Source of the DNA: Saprospiraceae bacterium
GTDB lineage: Bacteria > Bacteroidota > Bacteroidia > Chitinophagales > Saprospiraceae
Direction: 5' to 3'
Assembly (NCBI GenBank): GCA_013214355.1
Contig: JABSSL010000043.1
Location: 1 to 64,000 of the forward strand
DNA length: 64,000 bases
The notes beneath the pieces are model-generated. The model was not told where the DNA came from. It made no database searches and saw nothing but the letters and a program-made list of their open reading frames with translations. Below are positions 11,871 through 53,668 of the stretch, in pieces; the stretch's first letter is position 1; each line of letters opens with the position of its first letter. The position numbers and the translations under genes are program-made.

Positions 11871-12199
11871 GATCTGCTTAAGTTTAGGAATGGAATCAGC
11901 TCCCACATCTTTTGACGAACCTGTTGGGATTGTTGCAATTGTCGAACCCCTATGTCCGTGATGGTGAAGAGGCGTTTTCTTCGATCTCCACGTTTGGCCG
12001 TATTGCCGCCCAACTCTGAGCTTAACAAGCCTTTATCTTGCAAGCGATAAAGCGTAATGTGAACAGCACCTAGCAGTATTGAGCGCCCCGTATGCTTTTC
12101 CACTTCCTCTTTCACAGAAATACCGTAGGCTTGCCCTTCCAAAATGCATACTGCTAGGAGTACCAATTCTTCAAACTCACCTAGACCTTTCTTTTTAAT
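11867..12199 (-). CDS. PadR family transcriptional regulator, apparent ATT start
   Basis: A winged-helix PadR protein of 110 residues if begun at ATT 12199. The conserved N-terminal phrase LGEFEELVLLAV is in frame upstream of the only conventional candidate, a TTG at 12166, and a TAA stop lies two codons before the ATT. No ATG, GTG or TTG occurs between. Aligned to the paralogue at 322, ATT falls exactly where that protein has its ATG (five residues before LGEF). The recognition region (LLGAVHITLYRLQDKG) and wing (KRGDRRKRLFTITDIG) are intact. Its stop overlaps the permease start by four bases (ATGA). It should repress this operon from the palindrome that covers its own start. Confidence 0.85.
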   Translation of the reverse strand: MKKKGLGEFEELVLLAVCILEGQAYGISVKEEVEKHTGRSILLGAVHITLYRLQDKGLLSSELGGNTAKRGDRRKRLFTITDIGVRQLQQSQQVRQKMWELIPFLNLSRS

Positions 12200-12238
12200 T
12201 AGTTACAATTTTGTATATATACAAAGTTATAACTAATT
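12197..12238 (-). promoter_or_regulatory. 42-bp palindromic operator over the PadR promoter
   Basis: A near-perfect dyad centred between 12217 and 12218, with only two mismatched pairs across 21 pairs and a 16-bp perfect core TTTGTATATATACAAA. On the reverse strand a perfect -7 box TAACTTTG (12229-12222) lies within it, and the left edge includes the ATT start codon at 12199. A repressor bound here would occlude the polymerase; the transcript would have a leader of only about 16-18 nt. Autoregulation by the PadR protein is inferred. Confidence 0.75.
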
Positions 12239-12500
12239 CCCAAAATCTCTAATGGAGCCTAAAAGAATTGTAAATTATTTCTTCACCTATTCAATGAAAA
12301 GAGAAATCATAAGCACCTAAGGAGAGTGCTCGGAGCGCCGGAGAGACAGAATTCAAGAACGCAAACACCTAGAATATGGCTGCCAGATGGCAAGAATAAT
12401 TCCATCCCTTTCATTACAGTCTTAAAAGTCTTATCTTAATAGGGAGCTATAACAATGGAAATTGGAAGTACAATCTTTAACAAGTACCAAAACCACGCGC

Positions 12501-13751
12501 ATGAAAATCCAACACCTATTGCTCTTATCCATTCTTCCCTTGTTGACAGGCTGTCAATTAGAAGAACCCTTTCCTGCTGGGCAATTCTCTTCCCTCCAAG
12601 ACACTTTAGTATTATCTTCTATTAAGCACCGTGGAACAGGCCTCTTCATGGTTGGGGCAGGAAGTTTTGACTTTCGAGATACAGCTCATGAGTTTTCGCA
12701 GGAATGGCTGAACTACCCCATACAGTATCCAGATGGAATTGATAGCCTGAAAGTGGGATCTAGACTTATTGCCTTTAAACCTTTCCGGTATTGGGACGAT
12801 CCAATGCCTCTAGAGGATTCTTCGTTTCAAATTAAAGACAAATCTAACACCATACTTGCAATGTCAGGTAAACGTGGAGGAGAAGAGGTCTATATTTTTG
12901 ATCAAAACAACAACCAGGACTTTCGAGACGATTCAATTCGAACCATGGGTATTCTAGATTGGAAGCCCAGCGAGGATTTGATTGCTTGTTATTATTCGAT
13001 AGAAAGAGGTAATGGAGAGATGGTGCCAGATACCAGCTGGTTTAGGGTTGGAAAGAGGAGAGGTTCACCCTGGTCATATGTCACCCAACATGTGACTTCG
13101 ATCTTTTCTATTGATGATTACGAATACGAGATCGGAGTTGTCGATTATAATTCAAGTAGCTTTGATTTCGTAAGGCCCCAAATCTCTATACTAGCGGAGG
13201 GCAATCTTAAAAGAGATACTTTACTCTTGAGAGATTACTACGATATAGGAGAACATATAAAACTGGGTCAATATTTCTATAAGTTTGCCGACTTCTACTC
13301 AGGTGATGGTACGGTGGTGCTAGTAAGAGATCCCGACTTTGATAAAAAGGTAGCTGTACAAATCGATGCCCTAGCTCCTGACTTTGAGTTTGTATCCCTA
13401 AACGGAGACACCCTGACCAAGGATAGCATTAAAGAAGATTTCCTCTTAATTACCAACTTTTCCGGCTGTACACCGAGATCTTATGATGTGTATCAAGACA
13501 TTTTGGATGCGGATCTCAAGAACTTCTTTGTGGTTGGCATAGAATCAGGATTAAGTGTAGACCTGGGTGGGATTACGCTAGATGTGGAAGACCCTTTCAA
13601 TGAAGATATGTACAATAAGTATAGAAGCTGGTACAGCTCCTATGATTCCTATCTAATTGAAAAAAACGGCCGTATCGTGGATAAGTTTTCCATTTTTGAT
13701 TGGGAAGACCATTTAAAGGGGTTTCTAGATCCGGAGGTATTTAAGAATTAG
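12501..13751 (+). CDS. Lipoprotein with a degenerate thioredoxin-like C-terminal domain
   Basis: Using the ATG at 12501 (a start 39 bases upstream would bury the signal peptide), the product has 416 residues. A lipoprotein signal ends in LLTGC. Residues ~30-290 are a beta-rich domain with no motif I know. Residues ~295-416 begin APDFEFVSLNGDTLT, the usual opening of TlpA/AhpC redoxin domains, then ITNFSGCTPRSYDVY where a CxxC motif is expected; only one cysteine remains (CTPR). It could be a one-cysteine redox or a purely binding domain. It stands alone, starting 260 bp after the PadR module and ending 9 bp before the opposing MutS-like gene. Confidence 0.7.
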   Translation: MKIQHLLLLSILPLLTGCQLEEPFPAGQFSSLQDTLVLSSIKHRGTGLFMVGAGSFDFRDTAHEFSQEWLNYPIQYPDGIDSLKVGSRLIAFKPFRYWDDPMPLEDSSFQIKDKSNTILAMSGKRGGEEVYIFDQNNNQDFRDDSIRTMGILDWKPSEDLIACYYSIERGNGEMVPDTSWFRVGKRRGSPWSYVTQHVTSIFSIDDYEYEIGVVDYNSSSFDFVRPQISILAEGNLKRDTLLLRDYYDIGEHIKLGQYFYKFADFYSGDGTVVLVRDPDFDKKVAVQIDALAPDFEFVSLNGDTLTKDSIKEDFLLITNFSGCTPRSYDVYQDILDADLKNFFVVGIESGLSVDLGGITLDVEDPFNEDMYNKYRSWYSSYDSYLIEKNGRIVDKFSIFDWEDHLKGFLDPEVFKN

Positions 13752-38579: not shown

Positions 38580-39488
38580 CTAGATTAGTTCTTTCACTTT
38601 GTTCTCTTTTACCAGGTCCTGGGGAGCGTAGTCGGGGTAGGGGATGGGTAGATACTCGATGAAGCTGACCTGCTCTCGAAGGTACCTTACGATTTCATTT
38701 TCGTTCCCTTCCTCTTTCTTGAAAAATACGGTCTCCAATTGGTTGAAATCATCTAAAGAACTAAAGTTTCCGACCCTGTGCAGGAGCATCTTTCTAGCAA
38801 TCGGCAGGTTTGAATTGGACATGGAGATGGAGATACCTTTCAGCATTTCCATCGTCTCGGCATAGAGAGGAGGTAGATGGAAGTGTGCCATGAAGTTATC
38901 GATGGCTAAGGTGTTCTTCTCCGCAATCTGTATGGTGAATAGGTGGTTGTTGGACATGTATCCAAACCCTTCGTACCAGGCTGGACTCTTCTTGTTGCCT
39001 TTCCTGACCCGGTAAGTCTGTTGGCGCGCATCGTAGTAGATCAGGAAGGGTTCCCGTTTTACCCGGTAGCCGAAGGAGGAAATATAATAGCAATGGTAGA
39101 CGCCTTCCAGCAAGCGTAGAATCTCTCCTGGTGAGCCATTGATGAGATTGTCAATATACTTCAGGGGTTTGTGCTCGCGTACTTCGAACAGTTGCAGCTT
39201 TAGGGTTTCAAGTTTCTGTAGGTATTCCTGAATTCTCCGACGAGTCTTCAACTCTGAAACATTATTGACTTGATGGAATACAGCTTTGATCTCTTGCTCC
39301 GTTAAAGGTCCCTGCTGACCGTTCTGTACCAGTTCACTCAGAACATTATTGATTAGCGCGGAAAAAGCGGAAGGATACATGTCTAGAGCATGGGCAATTT
39401 CCTTGTTCTTAATGCCAGCCTCCTTCAGGAAGCGAGTTAACTGAAGCATGCGCCGGGCCTGATCGATGAAAGAAGGGGTTGCAGACAT
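38580..39488 (-). CDS. Predicted HTH protein divergent from SusC
   Basis: A 302-residue cytoplasmic protein that I do not recognise by name. Residues ~8-50 (RMLQLTRFLKEAGIKNKEIA, then LDMYPSAFSALINNVL) look like a helix-turn-helix of the Cro/C1 style, with ~65-105 a coiled-coil stretch (KTRRRIQEYLQKLETLKLQL). The C-terminal 180 residues are a mixed alpha/beta domain with HCYYISSFGYRVKREPFLIY, which may sense a ligand. It is divergent from SusC across a 379-bp gap, the usual place for a regulator of a SusCD locus. Confidence 0.55.
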   Translation of the reverse strand: MSATPSFIDQARRMLQLTRFLKEAGIKNKEIAHALDMYPSAFSALINNVLSELVQNGQQGPLTEQEIKAVFHQVNNVSELKTRRRIQEYLQKLETLKLQLFEVREHKPLKYIDNLINGSPGEILRLLEGVYHCYYISSFGYRVKREPFLIYYDARQQTYRVRKGNKKSPAWYEGFGYMSNNHLFTIQIAEKNTLAIDNFMAHFHLPPLYAETMEMLKGISISMSNSNLPIARKMLLHRVGNFSSLDDFNQLETVFFKKEEGNENEIVRYLREQVSFIEYLPIPYPDYAPQDLVKENKVKELI

Positions 39489-39867: not shown

Positions 39868-42800
39868 ATGAACGTTAACCTTCGAAAAGGAAAAAAGGTA
39901 TCCTACCTAAAAGGTATGGCTACACTTTTAGCCTTGTGCTTTATTACCACACAAGCTTGGTCACAGCTTACCGTGACTGGAAAGGTGACAGATGCTGGCA
40001 CTGCCGAACCTTTGATTGGTGTCAATATCTTAGTTAAAGGAACTGCTCAAGGGACAGTTACGGACATTGATGGTGCCTACGAGCTTGAATTGAAAGAAGG
40101 TACAGAAACCTTGGTTTTTTCCTTCATCGGTTATGCCAACCAAGAAATTGCGGTAAACGGTCAGTCGACCTTAGATATCGCTCTAGCCGAAGGTTTGGCT
40201 TTGTCCGAAGCAGTAGTCACTGCACTCGGTATCAAGCGGGATGAAAAATCACTGGGATATGCTGTGCAAAAGTTGGATGGTGACGAATTCACACAAGCTA
40301 AAGAACCTAACTTTGTTAACGCCCTATCTGGTAAAGTTGCAGGTGTGAATATTACCAATGGTGGTTCTGGTGTGGGTTCTTCTTCTCGTATCGTGATCCG
40401 GGGTGAATCTTCTTTATCCGGTAACAACCAGCCTTTATTCGTAGTAAATGGTATTCCAATTAACAACAGCATTGGTGGAAATAATCGTGCAGAAGGAAAC
40501 CTAGAAACGGATTATGGTAATGGGGCAGGAGAGATCAACGCGGACGATATTGAGTCTATCTCCGTATTGAAAGGTGCAAACGCAACGGCTCTTTACGGTT
40601 CTCGTGCCGCTAATGGTGTAATCTTGATTACCACCAAATCAGGGGCGGCTACGAAGGGAATTGGAGTAAGCTTCAATTCGACTACTACTCTTGAAAACCC
40701 CCTGAGAATTCCTGAATACCAAAACCGATACGGACAAGGATCTAACTTCCAGTTCGAATTCGTAAACGGATTTGGTGGCGGTACCGCAGATGGGGTTGAT
40801 GAAAGCTGGGGCCCAGCTTTCAGAGGCCAGTCCATCAATCAACACGATAGCCCTACTTCTAGTGGTGTTAGAGCGGGTGATTTCGCTGCCCGTCCATTAA
40901 ATCCAGACGGTACTTTTGCCGATCAAATCAATGCTACTCCTTGGACAGCTGCTCCAACGAATATTGAAGATTTTTTCGAAACGGGTGTGACGACTTCTAA
41001 CAACATCGCCTTATCAGGAGGAGATGCAAACCGTAACTTCCGTTTGTCTTACACCAATCTGTATTCTGAAGGTATTCTTCCGAATACCAACTTGAAGCGT
41101 AACACTTTGGCTTTTGATGCTTCTCAGAAATTCTTGGATAACAAGTTGAAAATTACCACGAATATCAACTATGTAAATTCAGGTTCTGATAACCGTCCCA
41201 ATAACTCCTATGGTACAGAAAACGTGATGTACTTATGGGTTTGGTTTGGACGCCATATCGATATGAATTCTTTGAGAAACTACTGGCAGCCAGGCTTGGA
41301 AGGTGTTCAACAGTACAACTATAATTATAACTGGCATGATAATCCTTACTTCACGATGTTCGAAAACACGAACGCATTTGATAAGGATAGAATTTATGGT
41401 AACGTAAATGCAACTTACGAGATCTCTCCAAAACTGAATCTAATGGTTCGTTACGGCTTGGATCTGTTCAATGATCTAAGAGTGGGTAAGCGTGCCTTCA
41501 GTACGCAACGTTTTCCACAAGGGCAATACCGTGAAGATCGAATCTTCTTCGAGGAAAGAAATGCTGATTTCCTTTTGTCCTACAACGACAACTTTGCGGA
41601 CAACATCACCTTCACAGCCAACGTGGGGGCTAACCAGATGAATCAGACGAATCGTTTCAACCGAATTTCTGCTAACGAATTGGCTATTCCAGCGGTATAT
41701 TCTTTAAATAACTCTGCCATTCCTTTATCCAATAGCCAATTCAACTCCGAGCGACGAATCAACAGTTTGTATGGGGCATTCCAGGTAGGAATTAACAATG
41801 CCATTTACTTAGACTTCGCCGGTAGAAATGACTGGTCTTCTACACTTCCTGATGGTAACAATTCTTATTTCTATCCATCGGCCTCTGTTTCTTTTATCCT
41901 GTCTGAGCTGTTAGACATGTCAAACGGAACATTCTTGAAGTTACGTGGCGGATGGGGACAAGTAGGTAACGATACAGATCCTTACTCATTGAACAGTTTC
42001 GTTGAATTCTTGACGAACCCGTTCGGTGGTCAGTTATTGGCAACAGAGAGTAACACCCTTCCAAACGCTAATCTACTTCCGGAGCGTGCTTCTACCTTTG
42101 AAATCGGTGCTGATCTGCGCTTATTCAATGGAAGAATGAACTTAGATGTTACTTACTACAATACCGAGACCAAGAACCAGATTCTTCAAATTCCAGTATC
42201 TCAAACTACTGGCTACTCACAGCAATTCATCAATGCCGGTGCCATCAGAAGTCAAGGTGTTGAGGCCTTATTAAGCTTCTCTCCAGTACGTACAAGAGAC
42301 TTCAACTGGGAAGTTAATGTGAATTTCACACTGAACAGATCTAAGGTGTTGAGTCTTGCGGAAGGTTTACAGACGCAACAACTTAATGGCAACTACCTCC
42401 AGGTCTTAGCTAAGGTGGGTGAAAGAATGGGGGATGTGTACGGAACCGGTTTCGTATTAGTAGATACAGAAACCAACCAGAGAGTAACAGTTGAAGATGT
42501 AGAAGATATCAAACCAACTTACGCTAACCTATATGATGCAAGTGGATTCCCCGTTCGTGATCCAAATCTACGTCGCTTAGGTAACTATAATCCAGATTGG
42601 CTCGGCGGTATTTACAATACCCTTTCTTACAAAGGACTAAGCCTTGGCTTCTTGTTAGATGGTCGGGTTGGAGGTGTGGTGATGTCAAGAACACTATTGA
42701 TTGGTGGTACCTCAGGAATGATGGCTGAAACAGCACAATTCGATCGTGAGACGGGTACTTTCATTGGTGGTGTTACTAGAGTTGACGGAGTAAGCGAATT

Positions 42801-43188
42801 GGACAGAGCTGGTGTTAAAGAAGTAGTAGATGGTGAAGGTAATGGAACAGGCACTTATGTCGCCAATGACACGGAACTTTCTGCACGTGACTTCTACTGG
42901 TCACACTTCAACCGTGGCAATGAGCAAGTAGGCATGTATGATGCCTCTTTCTTGAAATTACGCGAGGTAAGATTAGGCTACAATTTTCCTAAATCAATAG
43001 TATCTAAGATTGGTGCACAGCGAATTTCACTTTCTGTAGTAGGACGAAATTTATTGTTGTGGACCGAGAACCCACACTTTGATCCAGAAGTATTCTCTTT
43101 CAATAGAAATGCAATTGTTCCGGGTGTTGAAGATATGGCAACACCTTCTTCTAGAAGTTACGGGGTGAACCTAAACGTAACCTTCTAA
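39868..43188 (+). CDS. SusC/RagA-type TonB-dependent outer-membrane transporter
   Basis: A 1106-residue transporter. A signal peptide (residues ~15-32, GMATLLALCFITTQAWSQ) is followed by a carboxypeptidase-regulatory-like domain (TVTGKVTDAGTAEPLIGVNI), the plug with the TIGR-type SusC motif (SISVLKGANATALYGSRAAN, near 230), and the ~22-strand barrel ending in YGVNLNVTF. It imports a SusD-bound ligand using TonB energy. With the SusD gene 73 bp after, and phosphonate-type enzymes downstream, the ligand may be a phosphonate-bearing molecule rather than a plain glycan; that is inference. No TonB box or sigma-interacting secretin domain stood out. Confidence 0.95.
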   Translation: MNVNLRKGKKVSYLKGMATLLALCFITTQAWSQLTVTGKVTDAGTAEPLIGVNILVKGTAQGTVTDIDGAYELELKEGTETLVFSFIGYANQEIAVNGQSTLDIALAEGLALSEAVVTALGIKRDEKSLGYAVQKLDGDEFTQAKEPNFVNALSGKVAGVNITNGGSGVGSSSRIVIRGESSLSGNNQPLFVVNGIPINNSIGGNNRAEGNLETDYGNGAGEINADDIESISVLKGANATALYGSRAANGVILITTKSGAATKGIGVSFNSTTTLENPLRIPEYQNRYGQGSNFQFEFVNGFGGGTADGVDESWGPAFRGQSINQHDSPTSSGVRAGDFAARPLNPDGTFADQINATPWTAAPTNIEDFFETGVTTSNNIALSGGDANRNFRLSYTNLYSEGILPNTNLKRNTLAFDASQKFLDNKLKITTNINYVNSGSDNRPNNSYGTENVMYLWVWFGRHIDMNSLRNYWQPGLEGVQQYNYNYNWHDNPYFTMFENTNAFDKDRIYGNVNATYEISPKLNLMVRYGLDLFNDLRVGKRAFSTQRFPQGQYREDRIFFEERNADFLLSYNDNFADNITFTANVGANQMNQTNRFNRISANELAIPAVYSLNNSAIPLSNSQFNSERRINSLYGAFQVGINNAIYLDFAGRNDWSSTLPDGNNSYFYPSASVSFILSELLDMSNGTFLKLRGGWGQVGNDTDPYSLNSFVEFLTNPFGGQLLATESNTLPNANLLPERASTFEIGADLRLFNGRMNLDVTYYNTETKNQILQIPVSQTTGYSQQFINAGAIRSQGVEALLSFSPVRTRDFNWEVNVNFTLNRSKVLSLAEGLQTQQLNGNYLQVLAKVGERMGDVYGTGFVLVDTETNQRVTVEDVEDIKPTYANLYDASGFPVRDPNLRRLGNYNPDWLGGIYNTLSYKGLSLGFLLDGRVGGVVMSRTLLIGGTSGMMAETAQFDRETGTFIGGVTRVDGVSELDRAGVKEVVDGEGNGTGTYVANDTELSARDFYWSHFNRGNEQVGMYDASFLKLREVRLGYNFPKSIVSKIGAQRISLSVVGRNLLLWTENPHFDPEVFSFNRNAIVPGVEDMATPSSRSYGVNLNVTF

Positions 43189-43211
43189 GAAAGCTCATTC
43201 ATTAACCTGCC

Positions 43212-43240
43212 GTTTGTGAGACTTCGGAAGTCTCACAAAC
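43212..43240. promoter_or_regulatory. Strong hairpin between SusC and SusD genes
   Basis: GTTTGTGAGACTTC (43212-43225) and its perfect complement (43227-43240) form a stem of 13 bp with a 3-nt loop, 23 bp after the SusC stop. It lacks a T-run and may act as an mRNA processing or 3'-protection element, tuning SusC above SusD. The SusD start lies 21 bp beyond. Confidence 0.6.
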
Positions 43241-43261
43241 AGCGGCGGCAAAATTTCGACC

Positions 43262-44743
43262 ATGAAGTCATTAAATATAAAAGCACTATTTATCCTTTTG
43301 GGTCTACTAGCCATGCAAGCCTGTACAGCAGGCTTCGAAGAGCTGAATACCAATCCAAACCAGCCTACGGTAGATAAAGCTAACCCAGATTTGATCTTAC
43401 CAAAAGTTATTTCGGAAGTAGGCAATGAGTTGACGGCTGGTATTGCTTGGGGATTCGGTAACGTCGTTTCTCAGGCGGTAGCTACCAATAACTTTACCAG
43501 TGTTGATATCTACGCTTGGGGCACTTACAGTGGTACCTGGAACTCCATGTACAGAAATGCTAGAGATGCACAGAACTTGATCATCATCGCCGAAGAGCGG
43601 GGAAATGATAACTTAAAAGCTGTGGCATTAGTCCTGAAGTCTTACATCTTTTCTTTCTTAACGGATATGTGGGGGGATGTACCTTACGCCCAAGCTTTGA
43701 ATGGTAAAGGCGTAAATGGCGATGCAGTTTTTGAACCTGCATACGATTCACAGGCTGATATTTACAAAGGGATTTTGGCTGATTACGAGATGGCAAATAG
43801 CCTTTTTGGTGGAACAGGATCTATCGGTGGCGACATCATGTTTGGTGGAGACGTAGAGAAATGGCGTAAATTATGTAATGCGCTTCGTATCCGTACCATC
43901 ATGCGTTTAGAGCATAAATGGGGAGAGCTGGGTTTAAGCGCCAATTCTTTGCAGCAAATCGTTGATAATGAGCCATTAATGGAGTCAAACGCAGACAATG
44001 GTGTTTTGGGGTATTTAGCTACTTCTCCAAACCAATGGCCACGCCAAACCGGTCGTGTTGGTGGTTTTGATGAAAAACGAATGAGTCAGCGTATTGAAAG
44101 TGTTTTGAAAAGCACGAATGATCCACGCTTGTTCGTGATGTTCCGCCCCCTTGATAACCAAGATAGCTTAGGTGTTTACCGTGGTATTCCAAATGGTTTA
44201 TCTGAGGATAACGCTATTAACTTCAATGGTGGTCCTAAAAATCAATCCCGCCTAGGGCTACGCTACCGTGATACCGATAATCCATCAAATGTCGATGTCG
44301 ATATGACTTATATGCAGTACAATGAATTGATGTTCATTTTAGCCGAAGCTGCAGTTAAGGGATATATCTCGGGTGATGCAGAAGCTTATTACTTGAATGG
44401 ATTAAATGCAACTTTGGAGTACTTTAAAGTGGCGCCTGAAGCCTCTTTCTTTGCCCAGTCAGCCATTGACCTGAAGTCCGCTGCAACTACAGAAGGACAA
44501 TTGGAAATCATTGGGACCCAAAAGTGGTTAGGACTTTTCATGGTGGGCGCTGAAGCATGGTTTGATTTCCGTAGAACAGGCCTTCCTAGATTGACTCCTG
44601 GTGAAAATGCCATTTTCAATCAAGTACCTGTACGTATTCAGTACCCAAGTGATGAGCAAGTATTGAATGCTACAAACTACGATGCAGTGATTAGCCGCCA
44701 GGGACCAGATGAAATCTTGACAAAACCTTGGTTACTGCAATAA
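43262..44743 (+). CDS. SusD/RagB-type nutrient-binding lipoprotein
   Basis: A 493-residue outer-membrane lipoprotein (signal KSLNIKALFILLGLLAMQAC). The N-terminal FEELNTNPNQPTVDKANPDLIL is typical of the SusD-like group 2 (SusD/RagB with NTNPN). TPR-like helices (VALVLKSYIFSFLTDMWGDVPY) and the C-terminal half (MYNELMFILAEAAVKGYI style, here MQYNELMFILAEAAVKG) match. It forms the lid of the SusC channel and captures the ligand. Together with SusC and the downstream enzymes it defines a utilisation locus. Confidence 0.95.
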   Translation: MKSLNIKALFILLGLLAMQACTAGFEELNTNPNQPTVDKANPDLILPKVISEVGNELTAGIAWGFGNVVSQAVATNNFTSVDIYAWGTYSGTWNSMYRNARDAQNLIIIAEERGNDNLKAVALVLKSYIFSFLTDMWGDVPYAQALNGKGVNGDAVFEPAYDSQADIYKGILADYEMANSLFGGTGSIGGDIMFGGDVEKWRKLCNALRIRTIMRLEHKWGELGLSANSLQQIVDNEPLMESNADNGVLGYLATSPNQWPRQTGRVGGFDEKRMSQRIESVLKSTNDPRLFVMFRPLDNQDSLGVYRGIPNGLSEDNAINFNGGPKNQSRLGLRYRDTDNPSNVDVDMTYMQYNELMFILAEAAVKGYISGDAEAYYLNGLNATLEYFKVAPEASFFAQSAIDLKSAATTEGQLEIIGTQKWLGLFMVGAEAWFDFRRTGLPRLTPGENAIFNQVPVRIQYPSDEQVLNATNYDAVISRQGPDEILTKPWLLQ

Positions 44744-44792
44744 ATGAAGGATGAGTAAGCTATGCATTTACCTAGCGTAGCCGTATAGGGAG

Positions 44793-44826
44793 GGAGGACG
44801 ATTAGAACTACTGCTAATCTTTCCTC
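44793..44826 (+). terminator. Imperfect hairpin after SusD
   Basis: GAGGA-C-GATTAG pairs with CTAATC-TT-TCCTC, about 11 pairs with a small internal loop, followed by a T/C-rich run (TTTCCC). It sits 50 bp past the SusD stop and may partly end the SusCD transcript before the enzyme genes. The leader 44827-44974 before the next gene contains a short GCACA/TGTGC dyad at 44885-44898 and nothing else clear. Confidence 0.5.
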
Positions 44827-44974
44827 TTTCCCATTTTATTTGCAACTTCACCGTTTGAGCATGCTAAGAATATTGAACCTTATATGCACAGCATTGTGCT
44901 CAATTTGCTTAGGATAAGGTATCTTGTACCAGACCCGGAATGGGACAAGATTTGTGATCACCGAAAACTTTCCT

Positions 44975-46066
44975 ATGTCCAAAAAGTATAACTTTCTTTT
45001 CACTAGTATTCTAGTGATTAGTACACAGCTAGTATTGGCCCAACCAGTAGAAAATGTAGTATTGGTAACCTTTGATGGATTGCGCTGGCAGGAATTATTT
45101 GGAGGGGCCGTAGATAGCATGATGAATAATCCCGAACTAACTAAGGATAAAGACCAAGTACTAGCCGCATTTCATGCCGATAGCCCCAAAGAAGCTAGAA
45201 AGAAACTGATGCCTTGGATGTGGTCGACGGTGGTGAAAGAGGGGCAATTGTATGGAAATCGCTGGTTGGGGAATTTGGTGAACTGTACCAACCGATTCTG
45301 GTTTTCCTATCCGGGCTACAATGAAATTTTGACCGGATTTAGTGATCCTGAAATCGATAGTAACGCTAAGAAGTACAATCAAAATAAAACCGTGCTAGAG
45401 TGGTTTGCAGAAAAACCTGAATTTAGCGGAAAAGTAGCTGCCTTTGGATCTTGGGATGTTTTTCCCTATATCATCAATGACCAGCGCAGTGGAATCCCCG
45501 TCAATGCTGGCTTTCGCAAGGCGGAAGATGAATACTTATCCTATAAAGAACAGTTTCTCAACGACCTTCAGGACCAAATTCCAAGCCCTTGGGCTACGGT
45601 GCGCCTTGATGCTTTTACGCATAACTATATGCTAGAGCACATGAAAAAGCATCATCCTCGAATTGTATATATCTCCTATGGGGAGACTGATGATTTTGCG
45701 CACGATGGTCGTTATGATCACTATCTGAAATCTGCTCATCAGACGGACAAATGGCTAGCTGCCCTTTGGGACTACCTGCAAAATGATCCCTTTTACAAAG
45801 GTAAAACTAGCCTATTGATCACTACGGATCATGGGCGGGGGCATTCACCTATGACCCAATGGAAAAGCCACAGAACGATATACCGAGGATCTGATCAAAT
45901 CTGGATTGCAGCTATTGGTCCTAATATTGCAGCCCTTGGTGAAGTGGCCGTGGATCAAAGACTTTTTCAGTACCAAATAGCCAAAACCATGGCCAAGTTA
46001 CTGGGCTATGACTACCAAAACGAAAGAGAAGAGGTGGGCCCAGTGATAGAATCCATCATAAAATAA
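44975..46066 (+). CDS. Alkaline-phosphatase-superfamily hydrolase, secreted
   Basis: A protein of 363 residues from the ATG at 44975, which opens a signal peptide (SKKYNFLFTSILVISTQLVLA); an upstream start 51 bases earlier adds charged residues. Metal-binding and catalytic positions of the nucleotide-pyrophosphatase/phosphonoacetate-hydrolase group are visible: the aspartate in VLVTFDGLRWQELFGGA, a probable Ser nucleophile in RFWFSYPGYNEILTG, YGETDDFAHDGRYDHY, and TTDHGRGHSP. It should cleave a phosphomonoester, diester or a phosphonate ester in the periplasm. It is followed 6 bp later by the FAD oxidoreductase gene. Confidence 0.85.
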   Translation: MSKKYNFLFTSILVISTQLVLAQPVENVVLVTFDGLRWQELFGGAVDSMMNNPELTKDKDQVLAAFHADSPKEARKKLMPWMWSTVVKEGQLYGNRWLGNLVNCTNRFWFSYPGYNEILTGFSDPEIDSNAKKYNQNKTVLEWFAEKPEFSGKVAAFGSWDVFPYIINDQRSGIPVNAGFRKAEDEYLSYKEQFLNDLQDQIPSPWATVRLDAFTHNYMLEHMKKHHPRIVYISYGETDDFAHDGRYDHYLKSAHQTDKWLAALWDYLQNDPFYKGKTSLLITTDHGRGHSPMTQWKSHRTIYRGSDQIWIAAIGPNIAALGEVAVDQRLFQYQIAKTMAKLLGYDYQNEREEVGPVIESIIK

Positions 46067-46072
46067 CCTTTG

Positions 46073-47242
46073 ATGAACGAGTATGATATCATAGTAATTG
46101 GTGGCGGTATCTTGGGCATTGCCCATGCCTATCATTGTTTACAGGCTGGTATGAAAGTGGCCTTGATCGAACGCGATGCCTATCCCAATGGAGCGACTAT
46201 TCGAAACTTTGGCCAAGTTGTCCCTTCTGGTATGGATCGCAAATGGCAGCAATATGGCCTTGAAAGCTTGAGAGTGTACAAAGAGATTCAATCCAAGACT
46301 GATATTTCTGTACGAGAAGAAGGAAGTATTTATCTAGCCAGTAATGACGAAGAGTTGCAATTGCTGGAGGAACTGGCTGCTATCAACCGCAAGCATGGTT
46401 ATCGCTCGGTGCTGTGGACTAAGCAACAGTGTCTAGAGCGTTATCCTGGTTTAAAAGAGGGATATGTTAAGGCAGGCTTGTTCTTTCCGGAAGAGGTCAA
46501 GGTGGATCCACGATTAGCGGCTAAACGTATCATTCAATACTGCGTTTCAGCCTTGGGCCTCACCTATATTTCAAGGCGAACGATCATAGATACAGCTACT
46601 TTACCAGATAAACAGATATTGACCGACAACTTAGGGCAGACCTACCGTTGTAAGAAGACCTTTCTTTGTGGCGGAACGGAATTTCAGTTGCTGTTTCCTG
46701 AAATTTTTAATCAAAGTGACTTGGTGAAGGTCAAATTGCAAATGATGGAAACGGTGCCGCAGAAGCGACAGGTCATTCCCGGTTCTGTGCTTTCTGGATG
46801 GACTATTCGGAGATATGAAAGCTTCCATGAATGTCCTTCCTTCGCAGCCATAAAAGCACGGGAAGATAGGGAGGCTTATCACCTCAAACAGGGGATTCAT
46901 ATCCTCTTTAAGCAGTCTCCGGATGGTGGGGTGATTATAGGTGATTCCCACGAATATGCAACGGTCAAAGACGGCGAGACCTTGTCGATGGGGACGGACA
47001 ATGAGATCAATTGCTTTATCCTATCCCAAGCCCAACGAATCTTTCAACTAGAAGATTGGCAGATTTCACGAACTTGGGTCGGACAATACAGTCAGTGTCA
47101 AGAACAGGATATCTTCAATGAGACGATTGAAGATGACATACATATCGTGACAGGCATTGGGGGTAAGGGAATGACAGGATCTTTGGGGTATGCCAAAGAA
47201 AATGTGCGCAATCTACTTTCTTTAAATCTTGAAACAATCTAG
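46073..47242 (+). CDS. TIGR03364-type FAD-dependent oxidoreductase (phosphonate-linked)
   Basis: A protein of 389 residues from ATG 46073 (a TTG just before is the alternative). The N-terminal EYDIIVIGGGILGIAHAYHC is the FAD-binding motif of DAO-family enzymes; GATIRNFGQVVPSGMDRKWQ and RTWVGQYSQCQEQDIF are characteristic of the TIGR03364 group, known mostly from phosphonate gene clusters where members oxidise N-methylated or hydroxylated 2-aminoethylphosphonate. It is cytoplasmic (no signal). It starts 6 bp after the phosphatase-like gene and ends 2 bp before the HAD hydrolase, so they are one operon. Confidence 0.87.
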   Translation: MNEYDIIVIGGGILGIAHAYHCLQAGMKVALIERDAYPNGATIRNFGQVVPSGMDRKWQQYGLESLRVYKEIQSKTDISVREEGSIYLASNDEELQLLEELAAINRKHGYRSVLWTKQQCLERYPGLKEGYVKAGLFFPEEVKVDPRLAAKRIIQYCVSALGLTYISRRTIIDTATLPDKQILTDNLGQTYRCKKTFLCGGTEFQLLFPEIFNQSDLVKVKLQMMETVPQKRQVIPGSVLSGWTIRRYESFHECPSFAAIKAREDREAYHLKQGIHILFKQSPDGGVIIGDSHEYATVKDGETLSMGTDNEINCFILSQAQRIFQLEDWQISRTWVGQYSQCQEQDIFNETIEDDIHIVTGIGGKGMTGSLGYAKENVRNLLSLNLETI

Positions 47243-47244
47243 CC

Positions 47245-47928
47245 ATGGTAAAACTGGTAATCTTTGATATGGCAGGAACCTCTATCAATGAGGATAACCT
47301 GGTCTATAAAACCATCCAGCGAATGATGACCCTGCACGGCGTAGCAGTCTCCTTGGATACAGTCTTGGAATTAGGGGCAGGAAAGGAAAAACGTACGGCT
47401 ATCGCTGATATTGCGGAGGTAGTAGTAGGAAGTAAGGGGGTTTCAAGTGATTGGGTTGATAATGTGCATCAAGCTTTTAAAGAAGCCCTTGATCAAGCTT
47501 ATGAGACGGAGCATATGGAAGTTTTTCCTAGTGTCCACAAGGTGGTGAAAAAATTGCGCACTGAAGGGATAAAGGTGGGCTTTAACACAGGCTACAGTAG
47601 GCCCGTTGCGGAGCGGATTTTGGCTAGGTGTGGTGTGAAAGTCGGTGAGGATATCGATGCCCTAGCAACTGCAGATGACGCTGCAAATGGTCGACCTGCT
47701 CCTGATATGATTGACTTTATTTGCCATCAACTGGATATCCCTGCCAAACACTCCGTAAAGATTGGAGACAGCGCCATTGATATTGAGGAAGGTAGGAGTG
47801 CTGGTGTGAAATTAGCCATTGGCGTTACCACTGGCGCACAAACTCGTGAATTGATTGCCAAAGCGGAGCCAGATCATATTTTGGATGATATGCTGGAACT
47901 GTTACCCATTCTTGGGCTTGAGGAATAA
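47245..47928 (+). CDS. Phosphonatase-like HAD hydrolase
   Basis: A 227-residue HAD-superfamily enzyme of the TIGR03351 (phosphonatase-like) kind. Motif I D8-M-A-G-T12 carries the nucleophile Asp8; the threonine of motif II is in GFNTGYSRPVAERIL; motif IV is IGDSAIDIEEGRSAG. The cap retains Lys47 in LGAGKEKR, aligned with the Schiff-base lysine of phosphonoacetaldehyde hydrolase (MGxxKxxH), although the histidine three residues on is arginine. The likely reaction is cleavage of the C-P bond of phosphonoacetaldehyde produced by the preceding oxidoreductase. It is the last gene of the cassette. Confidence 0.87.
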   Translation: MVKLVIFDMAGTSINEDNLVYKTIQRMMTLHGVAVSLDTVLELGAGKEKRTAIADIAEVVVGSKGVSSDWVDNVHQAFKEALDQAYETEHMEVFPSVHKVVKKLRTEGIKVGFNTGYSRPVAERILARCGVKVGEDIDALATADDAANGRPAPDMIDFICHQLDIPAKHSVKIGDSAIDIEEGRSAGVKLAIGVTTGAQTRELIAKAEPDHILDDMLELLPILGLEE

Positions 47929-50353: not shown

Positions 50354-52114
50354 CTACTTTTTAAGCAGAACCACATGAAAGAGAGCGGAAATGGGACCTT
50401 CCTCGGTAGAAACGCTCCCGCTCAAATCCAACTCGCCTGGAGGGAGGGATACATTTTCAAACCTAAGCCTACTTTCTTCAGCACCAAAGGATTGCGTCAA
50501 CTCTTGATCGGCAAATGTAAGCCTAGCTTCTGCATTCGGCGAGGATTCCTGAAGAATGACTTCAATGTCAAAATCAGCAGCTTTATCTACCTTAAGCCGC
50601 CAAGAACCAGATTTTCCCCAGCCATTACCAGAACGCTTTGTCCAGTCCTGAGCGCTTAGGACTGTCCTTGTCTCTTTTTCCGTCCCAATGATAATAGGAG
50701 GTTTAGCGTAGTTGTTGGGTCTTGTGGAGGAAACATCATCAAACCAGGCCTCATAAGCCTTCAAGAGGCGATCCTTTTCGCTGGATAGTGAGTCAGCTAG
50801 GTTGATGGTTTCTCCGGGATCTTCTTCCAAATTGTACAATTCATAGGGGACCCCCGCTGGCATTTCCTCCCTCCCGAAACCCGTCGGGTGAACCAATTTG
50901 TAGGTCTGGCCGATTGCTGCAAAGTGATGGTACTTCACGGGAGTATCCCCTCGATGTACTTGCAAAAAAAGCTGTCGATCTTCCCACTTAGCTTCCTCTC
51001 CCTTCAGTAAAGGCAGTATACTCTTGCCATCTAATTTAAGTCCAGCAGGTAGTTCCACCTGGGCCACATCGAGAAAGGTAGGCAATAGATCGATGTGCGC
51101 ACTAATACGACTGCTGCTTGTACCTGCCTTTAGCTGTGCTGGCCAATGGGCAAAAAATGGAGAGCGAATCCCGCCTTCATGTACCTCGGACTTCATTCCT
51201 CTTAGATCCATGACATAGCGCCGGCTATTGGGGCCATTGTCTACCATGAAGATAACCAGCGTGTTTTCGGTTAGCCCCCATTCATCCAATTGGGAGAAAA
51301 GCTTTCCAACATTCTGGTCTACATTCTCGATCATCGCTAAGACACCCGCCACATTGTCTAGTAGTTGTTCACCAGTGTCGCCGATGGAGATTGATAAAAT
51401 ATCCTTGTTCTTATATTTGGTTTTCAGTTCCGCTGGTACATCATGATAAGGGCCGTGTGGAGCGTTTAAGGCGATATAGCTAAAGAAGGGTTTATTATTG
51501 GCCACGGAATTTTCTATGAAATCCAAGGCGCCATCAAAGTACACATCGGTGCAGTAGCCCTTTGTCTGAATTGGCTCATTATTATGGAAAAGAATCGGAT
51601 CTGTATATCTTCTTTGGTTCTCAAAGGGTTCAGAGGGTTGGGCAAGTCCGCCGCCTTTATGGACCAATGCCTCTTGGAATCCCTGGTCACTGGGTCGCAT
51701 GGGGTAGCAGTCCCCCAGATGCCACTTGCCGAAAATTCCGGTAGCATAGCCCGCCTCACCCAGTAATTCGGCCATTGTTATCTCCTCGGTATCCATCATG
51801 GATCTTCCGATCCAAGTGTCTACTACTCGAGTCCGATAATTATAGCGACCCGTCATAAGACAAGCACGTGTAGGGCTGCAGACAGGACTTACATAGAATC
51901 GGCTTAAAGAGGCACTGCGGCTCGCCATGGCATCGATATTCGGCGTTTCAAGGAGGGGATTGCCGGCTACTCCAAGATCTCCGATGCCCTGGTCATCCGT
52001 CATAATCAGGATAATGTTCGGACGCGCGGTTTCAGTGGGCTGTTCTTCTCTGCTACAAGATGAAAAACATATGAAGCAGCATAGGAGTAGGATAAGAGAA
52101 CGTAGTTGGTACAT
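50354..52114 (-). CDS. Sulfatase (arylsulfatase family), lipoprotein
   Basis: A protein of 586 residues from ATG 52114, which starts a lipoprotein signal ending FSSC; an upstream start would add 22 residues. The sulfatase signature C79-S-P-T-R83 directs conversion of Cys79 to formylglycine. Metal ligands D40 and D41 lie in MTDDQGIGD, and VHEGGIRSPFFAHWP and the IVFMVDNGPNS region (here LVIFMVDNGPNS) complete the site. A C-terminal beta-sandwich of ~110 residues follows. It should desulfate a glycan or aryl compound. The modifying enzyme (FGE or anSME) is not in this window. Confidence 0.92.
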   Translation of the reverse strand: MYQLRSLILLLCCFICFSSCSREEQPTETARPNIILIMTDDQGIGDLGVAGNPLLETPNIDAMASRSASLSRFYVSPVCSPTRACLMTGRYNYRTRVVDTWIGRSMMDTEEITMAELLGEAGYATGIFGKWHLGDCYPMRPSDQGFQEALVHKGGGLAQPSEPFENQRRYTDPILFHNNEPIQTKGYCTDVYFDGALDFIENSVANNKPFFSYIALNAPHGPYHDVPAELKTKYKNKDILSISIGDTGEQLLDNVAGVLAMIENVDQNVGKLFSQLDEWGLTENTLVIFMVDNGPNSRRYVMDLRGMKSEVHEGGIRSPFFAHWPAQLKAGTSSSRISAHIDLLPTFLDVAQVELPAGLKLDGKSILPLLKGEEAKWEDRQLFLQVHRGDTPVKYHHFAAIGQTYKLVHPTGFGREEMPAGVPYELYNLEEDPGETINLADSLSSEKDRLLKAYEAWFDDVSSTRPNNYAKPPIIIGTEKETRTVLSAQDWTKRSGNGWGKSGSWRLKVDKAADFDIEVILQESSPNAEARLTFADQELTQSFGAEESRLRFENVSLPPGELDLSGSVSTEEGPISALFHVVLLKK

Positions 52115-52194
52115 GATTCCCAGGTTTTTCGTTTGTTGATTATCTAGCAATATAACAAAGCCTGGGAAACTTCGGGCCAATCTTTAGGACTGCA

Positions 52195-53541
52195 TCATTT
52201 CAAACTACTGGCATTGGCTTCATCAAAATGGATAAGTACATCGAAGAGTCTTGACAACTTAACATTGATGATGTAATTGTCAATGTAGGTATAATTGAAA
52301 CCTGCTCCAAACTGTACAAATGAGTTCGTAGTATTGAAGTAGGTGAAAACCTCATTTCTGAGCTCTTCTACGATCAGGTAGAGCTGATCTCCCTCAACAG
52401 CACTTAGTACTTGATTTACAGTATGACATTGTAACTCGGGAATGAGTTGCCGCTGTACGCCAGATTGGAACTCGCGGTTCTTGCCAGCTAGGAAGGCCAT
52501 AGCGGAGCCGGTGCCAAAGCTAAAGCCGACGGTTTTGTAAGTGTCGGCGTGGCGTTGTCGTAGTACGGTGCCCATGAATTGACCGCCAAAATCTGCACCA
52601 TCTGCCACATGGAAATTATGCGCCCAAATAGCAACTTTCGAATCTTGGCCCAATATCCGTTGCCACCACTCTGCGTAGAAGGCCATCAACTGATCCCGTT
52701 TTGCTCCGAAGTTGTTAGTGCGGTAAATCAACTCGCGTTGCTGGATAAGGTGGGCAGCCATCAGGGCAATCTCATATTCTTTACTGCTGCTGCCAGCCAC
52801 TAATTCTTGCTTATTTGCTACCAAATAATCATACACCTTTTGAGATCCTTCGATATTGGCTTGATGAATGGCCTCCGACTTACTGCTGTAGTCCATTAGT
52901 TCATTCGGTAGGTTTGCATAGTGCGACAGCACCCTTGCCGTGGAGTCCGGTTGCACTTTACCGATTAACTGAGCCACAAAACGCCTTTCTTCCTGGAAGT
53001 CCTTCCCTTGCGGATCACAGCCTACAAATAGTATTTTATCATCATCGGCTAAACTGCCATTATAATCAAACATCCATTGGGCGAGGTCGCGAACTTCTTG
53101 GGTATCGTAGGTCCAGTAATAGGTTTGATTCACAGCCGCATCTGCAGAGCCTAATCCCTCGGTAACAAAATCATTCACGACCATCGCATTGCCCCAAGGA
53201 ATCTCAAAGATGATCGCCTGGAAACCTTTCTCCTGTACCAAGCGACGAAAGATCTTATCTTTTAGTTGATAAAACTCCTTGGTACCATGCGTTGATTCCC
53301 CAAGGCCAACGAAATTTGCTTCTCCCAGATATTCGATTAGCGGATCTAAAGCAGGATCAGCAATTAGCGGATTAGCCCCATCAAACAAGTAGGTGTACTG
53401 TTCATTGAGTTGGTCAATGACGATCTGCTCCGCCTCGAAAGGAATACATTCCGAGGCCCCCTCGCTAGGGACAGTATTGTTTTTTTTACAACTAGAAAGG
53501 AAAACAAGGAAGAGGAATAAGCAAAGAGGTATTCTTGGCAT
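52195..53541 (-). CDS. Erythromycin-esterase-family lipoprotein
   Basis: A protein of 448 residues from ATG 53541, with lipoprotein signal PRIPLCLFLFLVFLSSC. The conserved GLGESTHGTKEFYQLKDKIF, IIFEIPWGNAMVVNDFV and IAMWAHNFHVAD-type region (KVAIWAHNFHVADGADFGG) hold the metal/catalytic Glu and His residues of the EreA/EreB/PfbA-like family. Despite the name, most members have unknown substrates and are not antibiotic-resistance proteins. It lies on the same strand upstream of the sulfatase, with 80 bp between. Confidence 0.87.
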   Translation of the reverse strand: MPRIPLCLFLFLVFLSSCKKNNTVPSEGASECIPFEAEQIVIDQLNEQYTYLFDGANPLIADPALDPLIEYLGEANFVGLGESTHGTKEFYQLKDKIFRRLVQEKGFQAIIFEIPWGNAMVVNDFVTEGLGSADAAVNQTYYWTYDTQEVRDLAQWMFDYNGSLADDDKILFVGCDPQGKDFQEERRFVAQLIGKVQPDSTARVLSHYANLPNELMDYSSKSEAIHQANIEGSQKVYDYLVANKQELVAGSSSKEYEIALMAAHLIQQRELIYRTNNFGAKRDQLMAFYAEWWQRILGQDSKVAIWAHNFHVADGADFGGQFMGTVLRQRHADTYKTVGFSFGTGSAMAFLAGKNREFQSGVQRQLIPELQCHTVNQVLSAVEGDQLYLIVEELRNEVFTYFNTTNSFVQFGAGFNYTYIDNYIINVKLSRLFDVLIHFDEANASSLK

Positions 53542-53668
53542 GAGTCGGGTGTTACCGGGTAATGAATTGGCTTGGTGAAGATAGCCCAAATTTGGCAAGT
53601 AGCTAGCGCATTGGATGGTTAAGAAAGGCATCGCACCGACACATATGGCCTTGCGTGGATATGTCGGT

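Follow-up and report, generated by a model that had tools for sequence, protein, structure and literature searches.

A SusCD locus in a Saprospiraceae genome with a probable role in phosphonate utilisation

What does an outer-membrane transporter of the SusCD type import when the genes that follow it resemble those of phosphonate catabolism? This question is raised by a locus at positions 39868-47928 of the window analysed here, i.e. the whole stretch of 64,000 nucleotides (positions 1 to 64,000, forward strand) of contig JABSSL010000043.1, which belongs to the 11.2 Mb genome assembly GCA_013214355.1 of a Saprospiraceae bacterium. A preliminary description of the window had taken it for a SusCD locus serving phosphonates rather than glycans. 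In our analysis the phosphonate role is supported by recurrent gene neighbourhoods and by the biochemistry of the oxidase family, and we conclude that this is probably a phosphonate utilisation locus of Bacteroidota, working through the sequence of steps proposed below. The opposition to glycans goes beyond the evidence, since phosphonate-decorated glycans are no less fitting as substrates than phosphonolipids.

The locus consists of five genes on the plus strand, an arrangement on which the open reading frame (ORF) positions and the family matches agree. A SusC/RagA TonB-dependent outer-membrane transporter (39868-43188; TIGR04056, 666 bits against a cut-off of 368, with plug and barrel domains) is followed by a SusD-type outer-membrane lipoprotein (43262-44743; PF12771, 282 bits), i.e. 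by the partner that together with it defines a SusCD system. Next come a secreted enzyme of the alkaline phosphatase (AP) superfamily (44975-46066), a flavin adenine dinucleotide-dependent amine oxidase of the TIGR03364/PbfD family (46073-47242) and a HAD hydrolase resembling the phosphonatase PhnX (47245-47928). With ATG start codons at 46073 and 47245, the three enzyme genes are separated by 6 and 2 bp, exactly as first described, while 73 bp lie between susC and susD, and 231 bp between the end of susD and the ATG of the AP gene at 44975. The same five genes are found in the nearest named loci, which come from metagenome-assembled genomes of a Lewinella (oxidase 91% identical) and of another member of the Saprospiraceae (85%).

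The window oxidase passes the curated TIGR03364 cut-off over the full profile (383 against 285 bits, positions 1-365 of 365). TIGR03364 is the annotation of the oxidase PbfD1, and purified PbfD1 and PbfD2 oxidise 2-aminoethylphosphonate (AEP) and N-methyl-AEP to phosphonoacetaldehyde; non-phosphonate analogues were not attacked by any tested enzyme, and 2-hydroxyethylphosphonate was not oxidised by PbfD/PbfC (PMC10590968). The preliminary description had the oxidase yield phosphonoacetaldehyde, a reaction shown for purified relatives and presumed for the window enzyme through its family. It had also noted the lack of the transaminase gene phnW, and this now extends to the whole genome, where no match exceeds the PhnW cut-off (best 153 bits against 401). 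Such an absence is to be expected, because the TIGR03364 family includes PbfD oxidases that make phosphonoacetaldehyde directly. A PbfD2-PhnX pathway without PhnW has already been described (PMC10590968), and by analogy the missing gene fits a known pathway type and not a gap. One PhnW-like gene elsewhere in the genome (L148) had its top score with a transaminase family of the pyridoxamine-pyruvate type, here too under the cut-off, and was set aside.

The HAD hydrolase gave its highest score with TIGR03351 (191.2 bits), under the cut-off of 218.9, and its second highest with the PhnX family TIGR01422 (104 bits, cut-off 220). We therefore call it phosphonatase-like and do not count it as a family member, and the earlier assignment stands in this restricted sense. 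Among proteins of solved structure, its best relatives are PhnX enzymes. All 57 HADs compared from the loci surveyed below have the nucleophile Asp, a Gly and, where PhnX forms its Schiff base, a Lys, and 56 of them have an Ala two residues past the nucleophile; in the multiple alignment the corresponding residues of the window protein are D8, G46, K49 and A10. An Ala, not an Asp, at this place marks phosphonatases rather than phosphatases. Pairwise alignment with PhnX instead pairs K47 with the Schiff-base Lys, but we prefer K49, because K47 occurs in just 21 of the 57 proteins. The PhnX His three residues after the Lys, which we take to be His56, is replaced by Ala in the window protein, as in 46 of the 57 HADs (His is retained in 2), so that substrate or rate may differ.

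Is the SusCD pair a true partner of these enzymes? The preliminary description had proposed searching for it beside TIGR03364 plus TIGR03351 in Bacteroidota, its absence being the outcome that would refute the idea. The TIGR03364 profile was run against 198 genomes from the order and 395 from the phylum, and 38 and 32 of them, respectively, gave matches above the cut-off. The 71 loci compared comprise 64 regions, none longer than 17 kb, that surround profile matches, the window, and six loci found through similarity to the window oxidase; several of the 64 regions end at contig ends and four rest on matches below the cut-off (G172, G021, G176 and G408; in G021 one of the two fragments that matched was taken). 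As controls we used 40 regions of 17.1 kb from the same genomes, placed by hand at round coordinates and not randomised by a program. The profiles for SusC, SusD and other proteins were built from the loci themselves, seeded by window-like matches, and SusDs of the PF07980 kind may escape them in either set of regions.

The refuting outcome did not occur: SusD of the window's type was found in 32 of the 71 loci and in none of the controls. SusC was found in 32 loci against two controls with score thresholds, and in 34 against five when the profile hits were limited by an E-value of 1e-10 alone. The phosphonatase-like HAD (53 of 71), the membrane protein DUF5690 (47), an XRE-cupin regulator (23), the window-type AP enzyme (18) and a second AP-superfamily type (10) were likewise absent from all 40 controls, while an HD enzyme of the TIGR03276 type occurred in 24 loci and one control. 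When the window and its six relatives are removed (n=64), SusC and SusD each remain in 25 loci, AP in 15, HAD in 46 and DUF5690 in 43. SusD stands together with an AP-type enzyme in 21 loci, and in several of the 71 (e.g. L088 and L090) the order SusC-SusD-AP-HD-HAD-DUF5690-oxidase recurs on one strand.

Relatedness was accounted for in a tree of the 69 oxidases longer than 300 amino acids; the Fisher p-values for locus and genome counts ignore it. On this tree the presence of SusD requires 13 changes, which lie on both sides of the deepest split; well-supported branches make at least 10 of these unavoidable. The SusD-oxidase pairing therefore recurs: it is clustered by descent, yet has been gained or lost many times. 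PF12771 was detected in all ten other SusDs queried in Pfam, out of 31 non-window SusDs; within the window's genome this is a minority SusD kind, with 10 loci as compared with 25 matches to PF07980, and it is the kind that the survey favoured.

The AP-superfamily enzyme matches known families weakly (PF01676, 22.9 bits against 24.3; TIGR01307, 18 bits). Its start at ATG 44975 reads like a signal peptide, and D34, S111, D239, H243, D285, H286 and H299 are invariant in all 19 rows of the alignment; judged from known motifs, these residues are candidates for the metal ligands and the nucleophile. The best solved relative by profile is a very weak one, an ectonucleotide pyrophosphatase/phosphodiesterase (E 0.0046), and a structure predicted from 3 close sequences was unusable (mean pLDDT 39). 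The gene is present in a single copy in the window's genome. Its family was detected in 22 of the 33 phylum genomes that have TIGR03364, compared with 31 of 362 others, and in 14 of the 22 genomes having both genes it lies within 15 kb of the oxidase. The earlier proposal was that a secreted enzyme of this superfamily frees the aminoalkylphosphonate; as to the bond to be cleaved, this goes beyond the evidence, and we regard the protein as a candidate phosphonate-ester hydrolase. In the second AP type, as represented by one protein from L014, PA14 and chitobiase-C-terminal-like domains hint at glycan substrates.

How would a freed aminophosphonate cross the inner membrane? This step had been left unexplained, and we propose DUF5690 (PF18943) as a candidate carrier. 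It is the commonest extra gene of the loci and encodes a many-helix membrane protein with about 12 hydrophobic segments (47 of 67 listed sequences were aligned). In 39 of its 47 loci it lies no more than 200 bp from the oxidase ORF, in many with an overlap of a few bases, and it is present in 30 of the 33 phylum genomes with TIGR03364, as against 12 of the 362 without. The window's genome has one DUF5690 gene, on another contig (L146, G000:C2), in a minus-strand run (9498-12817) together with an HpnZ-type dehydrogenase and an NAGPA phosphodiester glycosidase (PF09992). This dehydrogenase scores 311 bits with TIGR03366 ("putative phosphonate catabolism associated"), close to the cut-off of 328, and the products of the run may assist the window locus by cleaving sugar phospho(no)diesters.

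Eight of the 21 DUF5690 loci without TIGR03364 hold other phosphonate-type genes. Besides L146 these are L178, L182, L188, L192 and L194, with PhnW above the cut-off (L192 also has PhnX above its cut-off), L181, with a PbfA-like gene, and L195, with an HpnZ-type dehydrogenase and a TIGR03351-type HAD just below the cut-off (215.7 bits). L178 (G088:C56) combines PhnW, another amine-oxidase-type flavoprotein, DUF5690, SusD, the window-type AP enzyme and the HD enzyme, and may be a form of the window's system in which another oxidase is used. Three further DUF5690 places (G119:C11, G517:C294 and G034:C8) were left out of the locus set. A relationship of DUF5690 to the GlpT/AepP transporters (OPA-type members of the major facilitator superfamily, MFS) was considered and found no support: hhalign gave probabilities of 3.8% (local) and 1.7% (global) with a comparison set made up mostly of general MFS proteins, one member of which (L238) exceeds the family cut-off, and no PDB match was obtained at E up to 1. 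By eye, the first helix of DUF5690 bears some likeness to GlpT-type sequence, to which we give no weight. The structure predicted for DUF5690 from 4 sequences was unusable as well (mean pLDDT 41).

From these elements we infer the following mechanism. SusC and SusD would bind a molecule with AEP or N-methyl-AEP in ester linkage and import it across the outer membrane; a glycan or glycolipid decorated with phosphonate is the likeliest such molecule. In the periplasm the secreted AP enzyme would cut the P-O ester, and the free aminophosphonate would then enter the cytoplasm through an inner-membrane carrier, for which the candidate is the single DUF5690 protein encoded on the other contig beside the phosphonate-type dehydrogenase and the phosphodiester glycosidase. 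There the PbfD-type oxidase would convert it to phosphonoacetaldehyde and an amine, and the PhnX-like HAD would hydrolyse the C-P bond to give phosphate and acetaldehyde. Invertebrates and protists are known to have glycans that bear AEP or N-methyl-AEP (PMC6994554), and marine high-molecular-weight phosphonates have been proposed to be glycan-linked (PMC8931226). More tentatively, and as a possibility about which we are less confident than about the phosphonate role itself, the window may represent a widespread and repeatedly assembled Bacteroidota locus, in which a PF12771-type SusCD pair, a dedicated secreted phosphonate-ester hydrolase and a DUF5690 carrier import intact phosphonate-bearing glycans and feed AEP or N-methyl-AEP to a PbfD-phosphonatase pair.

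Several observations weigh against this picture. The most abundant phosphonates of the marine high-molecular-weight pool are said to be methyl- and 2-hydroxyethylphosphonate, not AEP (PMC8931226); taken with the inactivity of the Pbf enzymes on hydroxyethylphosphonate, this makes the bulk marine pool an unlikely substrate. DUF5690 does not form part of the window locus, and 13 of its 21 loci without TIGR03364 show no recognised phosphonate gene. AepP, a GlpT-related AEP permease, has been reported in one Bacteroidetes species (PMC8316502), and two proteins encoded in the genome of the window match the model of its family below the cut-off, so that a carrier other than DUF5690 is possible. In 8 of the 22 genomes with both genes, AP and oxidase do not lie within 15 kb of each other. 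To these points must be added the sub-threshold score of the HAD, the occurrence of the AP family in genomes without TIGR03364, the 39 of 71 loci that lack SusD of the window's type (some owing to contig ends), and a hairpin that separates susD from the enzyme genes.

Three rival explanations were weighed. The SusCD pair and the AP enzyme might serve general scavenging of organic phosphorus, mainly from ordinary phosphate esters and diesters, with the phosphonate enzymes as an accessory branch. The PusCD systems of Flavobacterium, which are induced by low phosphate and stand beside phosphatases and diesterases (PMC8115612), provide a precedent, with which the 31 AP-bearing genomes without TIGR03364 and the distant resemblance of the AP enzyme to an ectonucleotide pyrophosphatase/phosphodiesterase are in line. 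We nevertheless consider this unlikely, as in the window the AP gene directly precedes two phosphonate enzymes and in most genomes having both genes AP and oxidase lie within 15 kb of each other. It is still less likely that the SusCD pair is an independent neighbour, and that AP, oxidase and HAD alone cooperate on a small substrate entering by porins. The T-rich-tailed hairpin and the 231 bp between susD and the AP start would suit such an arrangement, as would the loci without SusD, but it sits poorly with a SusD that is present in 32 loci and no control and whose presence changed independently no fewer than 10 times along the oxidase tree, and with the 21 loci in which SusD and an AP-type enzyme occur together.

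We give least credence to the view that oxidase and HAD act on another compound (e.g. 1-hydroxy-AEP or a non-phosphonate amine), the HAD being an ordinary phosphatase. Besides the HAD score, the TIGR03364 description quoted in PMC10590968, which suggests an aminophosphonate slightly unlike AEP, may be cited in its favour; however, both PbfDs tested in that study act on N-methyl-AEP as well as AEP, and none of its enzymes acts on non-phosphonate analogues. PbfA, TIGR03276-type and PhnW genes, moreover, recur in these or related loci, and the HAD carries the phosphonatase mark, Ala instead of Asp, two residues past its nucleophile. We therefore retain phosphonate utilisation as the probable function of the locus.

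Its parts have counterparts in systems already known. SusCD clusters with phosphonate-degrading enzymes were reported from Flavobacterium in 2020 (PMC8115612), so the general idea is already in print and not wholly new. The window locus has the defining feature of PusCD, a SusCD-like pair beside organophosphorus enzymes such as phosphatases and diesterases; unlike the window locus and its relatives, however, the available text on PusCD stresses phosphodiesters and names no TIGR03364, PhnX-like HAD, DUF5690 or phosphonate pathway. The PbfD-PhnX pathway (PMC10590968) shares with the window a TIGR03364-family oxidase and a phosphonatase in the absence of PhnW; its enzyme is PhnX, whereas the window HAD is PhnX-like and below the PhnX cut-off, and the accessible portion of that paper mentions neither an esterase nor uptake through the outer membrane (0 occurrences of "TonB", "outer membrane" and "Bacteroid"). 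AepP, AepXVW and AepSTU (PMC8316502) perform the inner-membrane uptake of AEP that we propose for DUF5690, but AepP is related to GlpT, to whose family DUF5690 has no detectable similarity, and no SusCD belongs to these systems as far as the available text goes. Finally, the HpnW/TIGR03351/HpnZ set of the NCBIfam annotations comprises the same oxidase and HAD families; the HpnZ-like dehydrogenase of the window's genome lies elsewhere, and the NCBI names denote hypothetical equivalogs with no link to SusCD. In the open PMC literature we found neither a paper on DUF5690 nor the specific PbfD-HAD-AP-SusCD locus, its spread or its link to DUF5690, although this is no proof that none exists.

In the high-molecular-weight fraction of marine dissolved organic phosphorus, the share of phosphonates is 20 to 25% (PMC8931226). 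The AEP transporters AepP, AepXVW and AepSTU act on AEP as a small, free molecule (PMC8316502). If Bacteroidota, specialised polymer degraders as a phylum, took up bound aminophosphonates by way of SusCD, the first step that is still missing would be in place, and one could understand how such bacteria live on phosphonates in bound form; this would concern phosphonates of the AEP type, not the methyl- and hydroxyethylphosphonates said to dominate the marine pool. In that case DUF5690, a family of unknown function, would gain a role, as a carrier open to direct test, and the AP-type enzyme, present in a single copy, would be a candidate for phosphonate-ester hydrolysis that can be examined in a defined assay.

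Some other genes of the window and of the surveyed loci deserve mention. Just past the locus lie, on the minus strand, genes for a sulfatase-family enzyme (50354-52180) and an erythromycin-esterase-family protein (52195-53631), for which we saw no link to phosphonates. In L109, L124 and L127 the second AP-superfamily type and PbfA-like genes stand beside the TIGR03364 oxidase in a region without SusD or DUF5690. A large protein with beta-propeller and phosphoesterase domains, possibly a further secreted esterase, occurs in eight phosphonate or DUF5690 loci (L073, L074, L078, L085, L087, L129, L182 and L197) and in none of the 40 controls.

Two RNA hairpins are predicted on the plus strand. The one between susC and susD (43205-43250; -25.1 kcal/mol, z -4.95) possibly sets the ratio of the two products. 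The other, terminator-like and with a T-rich tail, follows susD (44788-44832; -24.5 kcal/mol, z -4.6) and also folds in L009 and L010; it argues against one simple operon, and the enzyme genes may be transcribed from a promoter of their own or by read-through. It was not listed by the consensus terminator scan of the window, and such scans were uninformative, with 11 promoter-like sites against 16 expected and 5 terminator-like sites against 7.3 expected. Upstream of susC there is one Bacteroidota-type -7 box, with no -33 match.

Divergently from susC runs a gene for a putative helix-turn-helix (HTH) regulator of 302 amino acids (38580-39488, minus strand), whose Pfam matches, HTH included, are sub-threshold. 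Relatives of this protein are present in four others of the 132 loci searched, none of these four being among the 40 controls. One is in L010 and three are encoded divergently upstream of DUF5690 (L188, L191 and L192); two of these DUF5690 loci, L188 and L192, also have PhnW.

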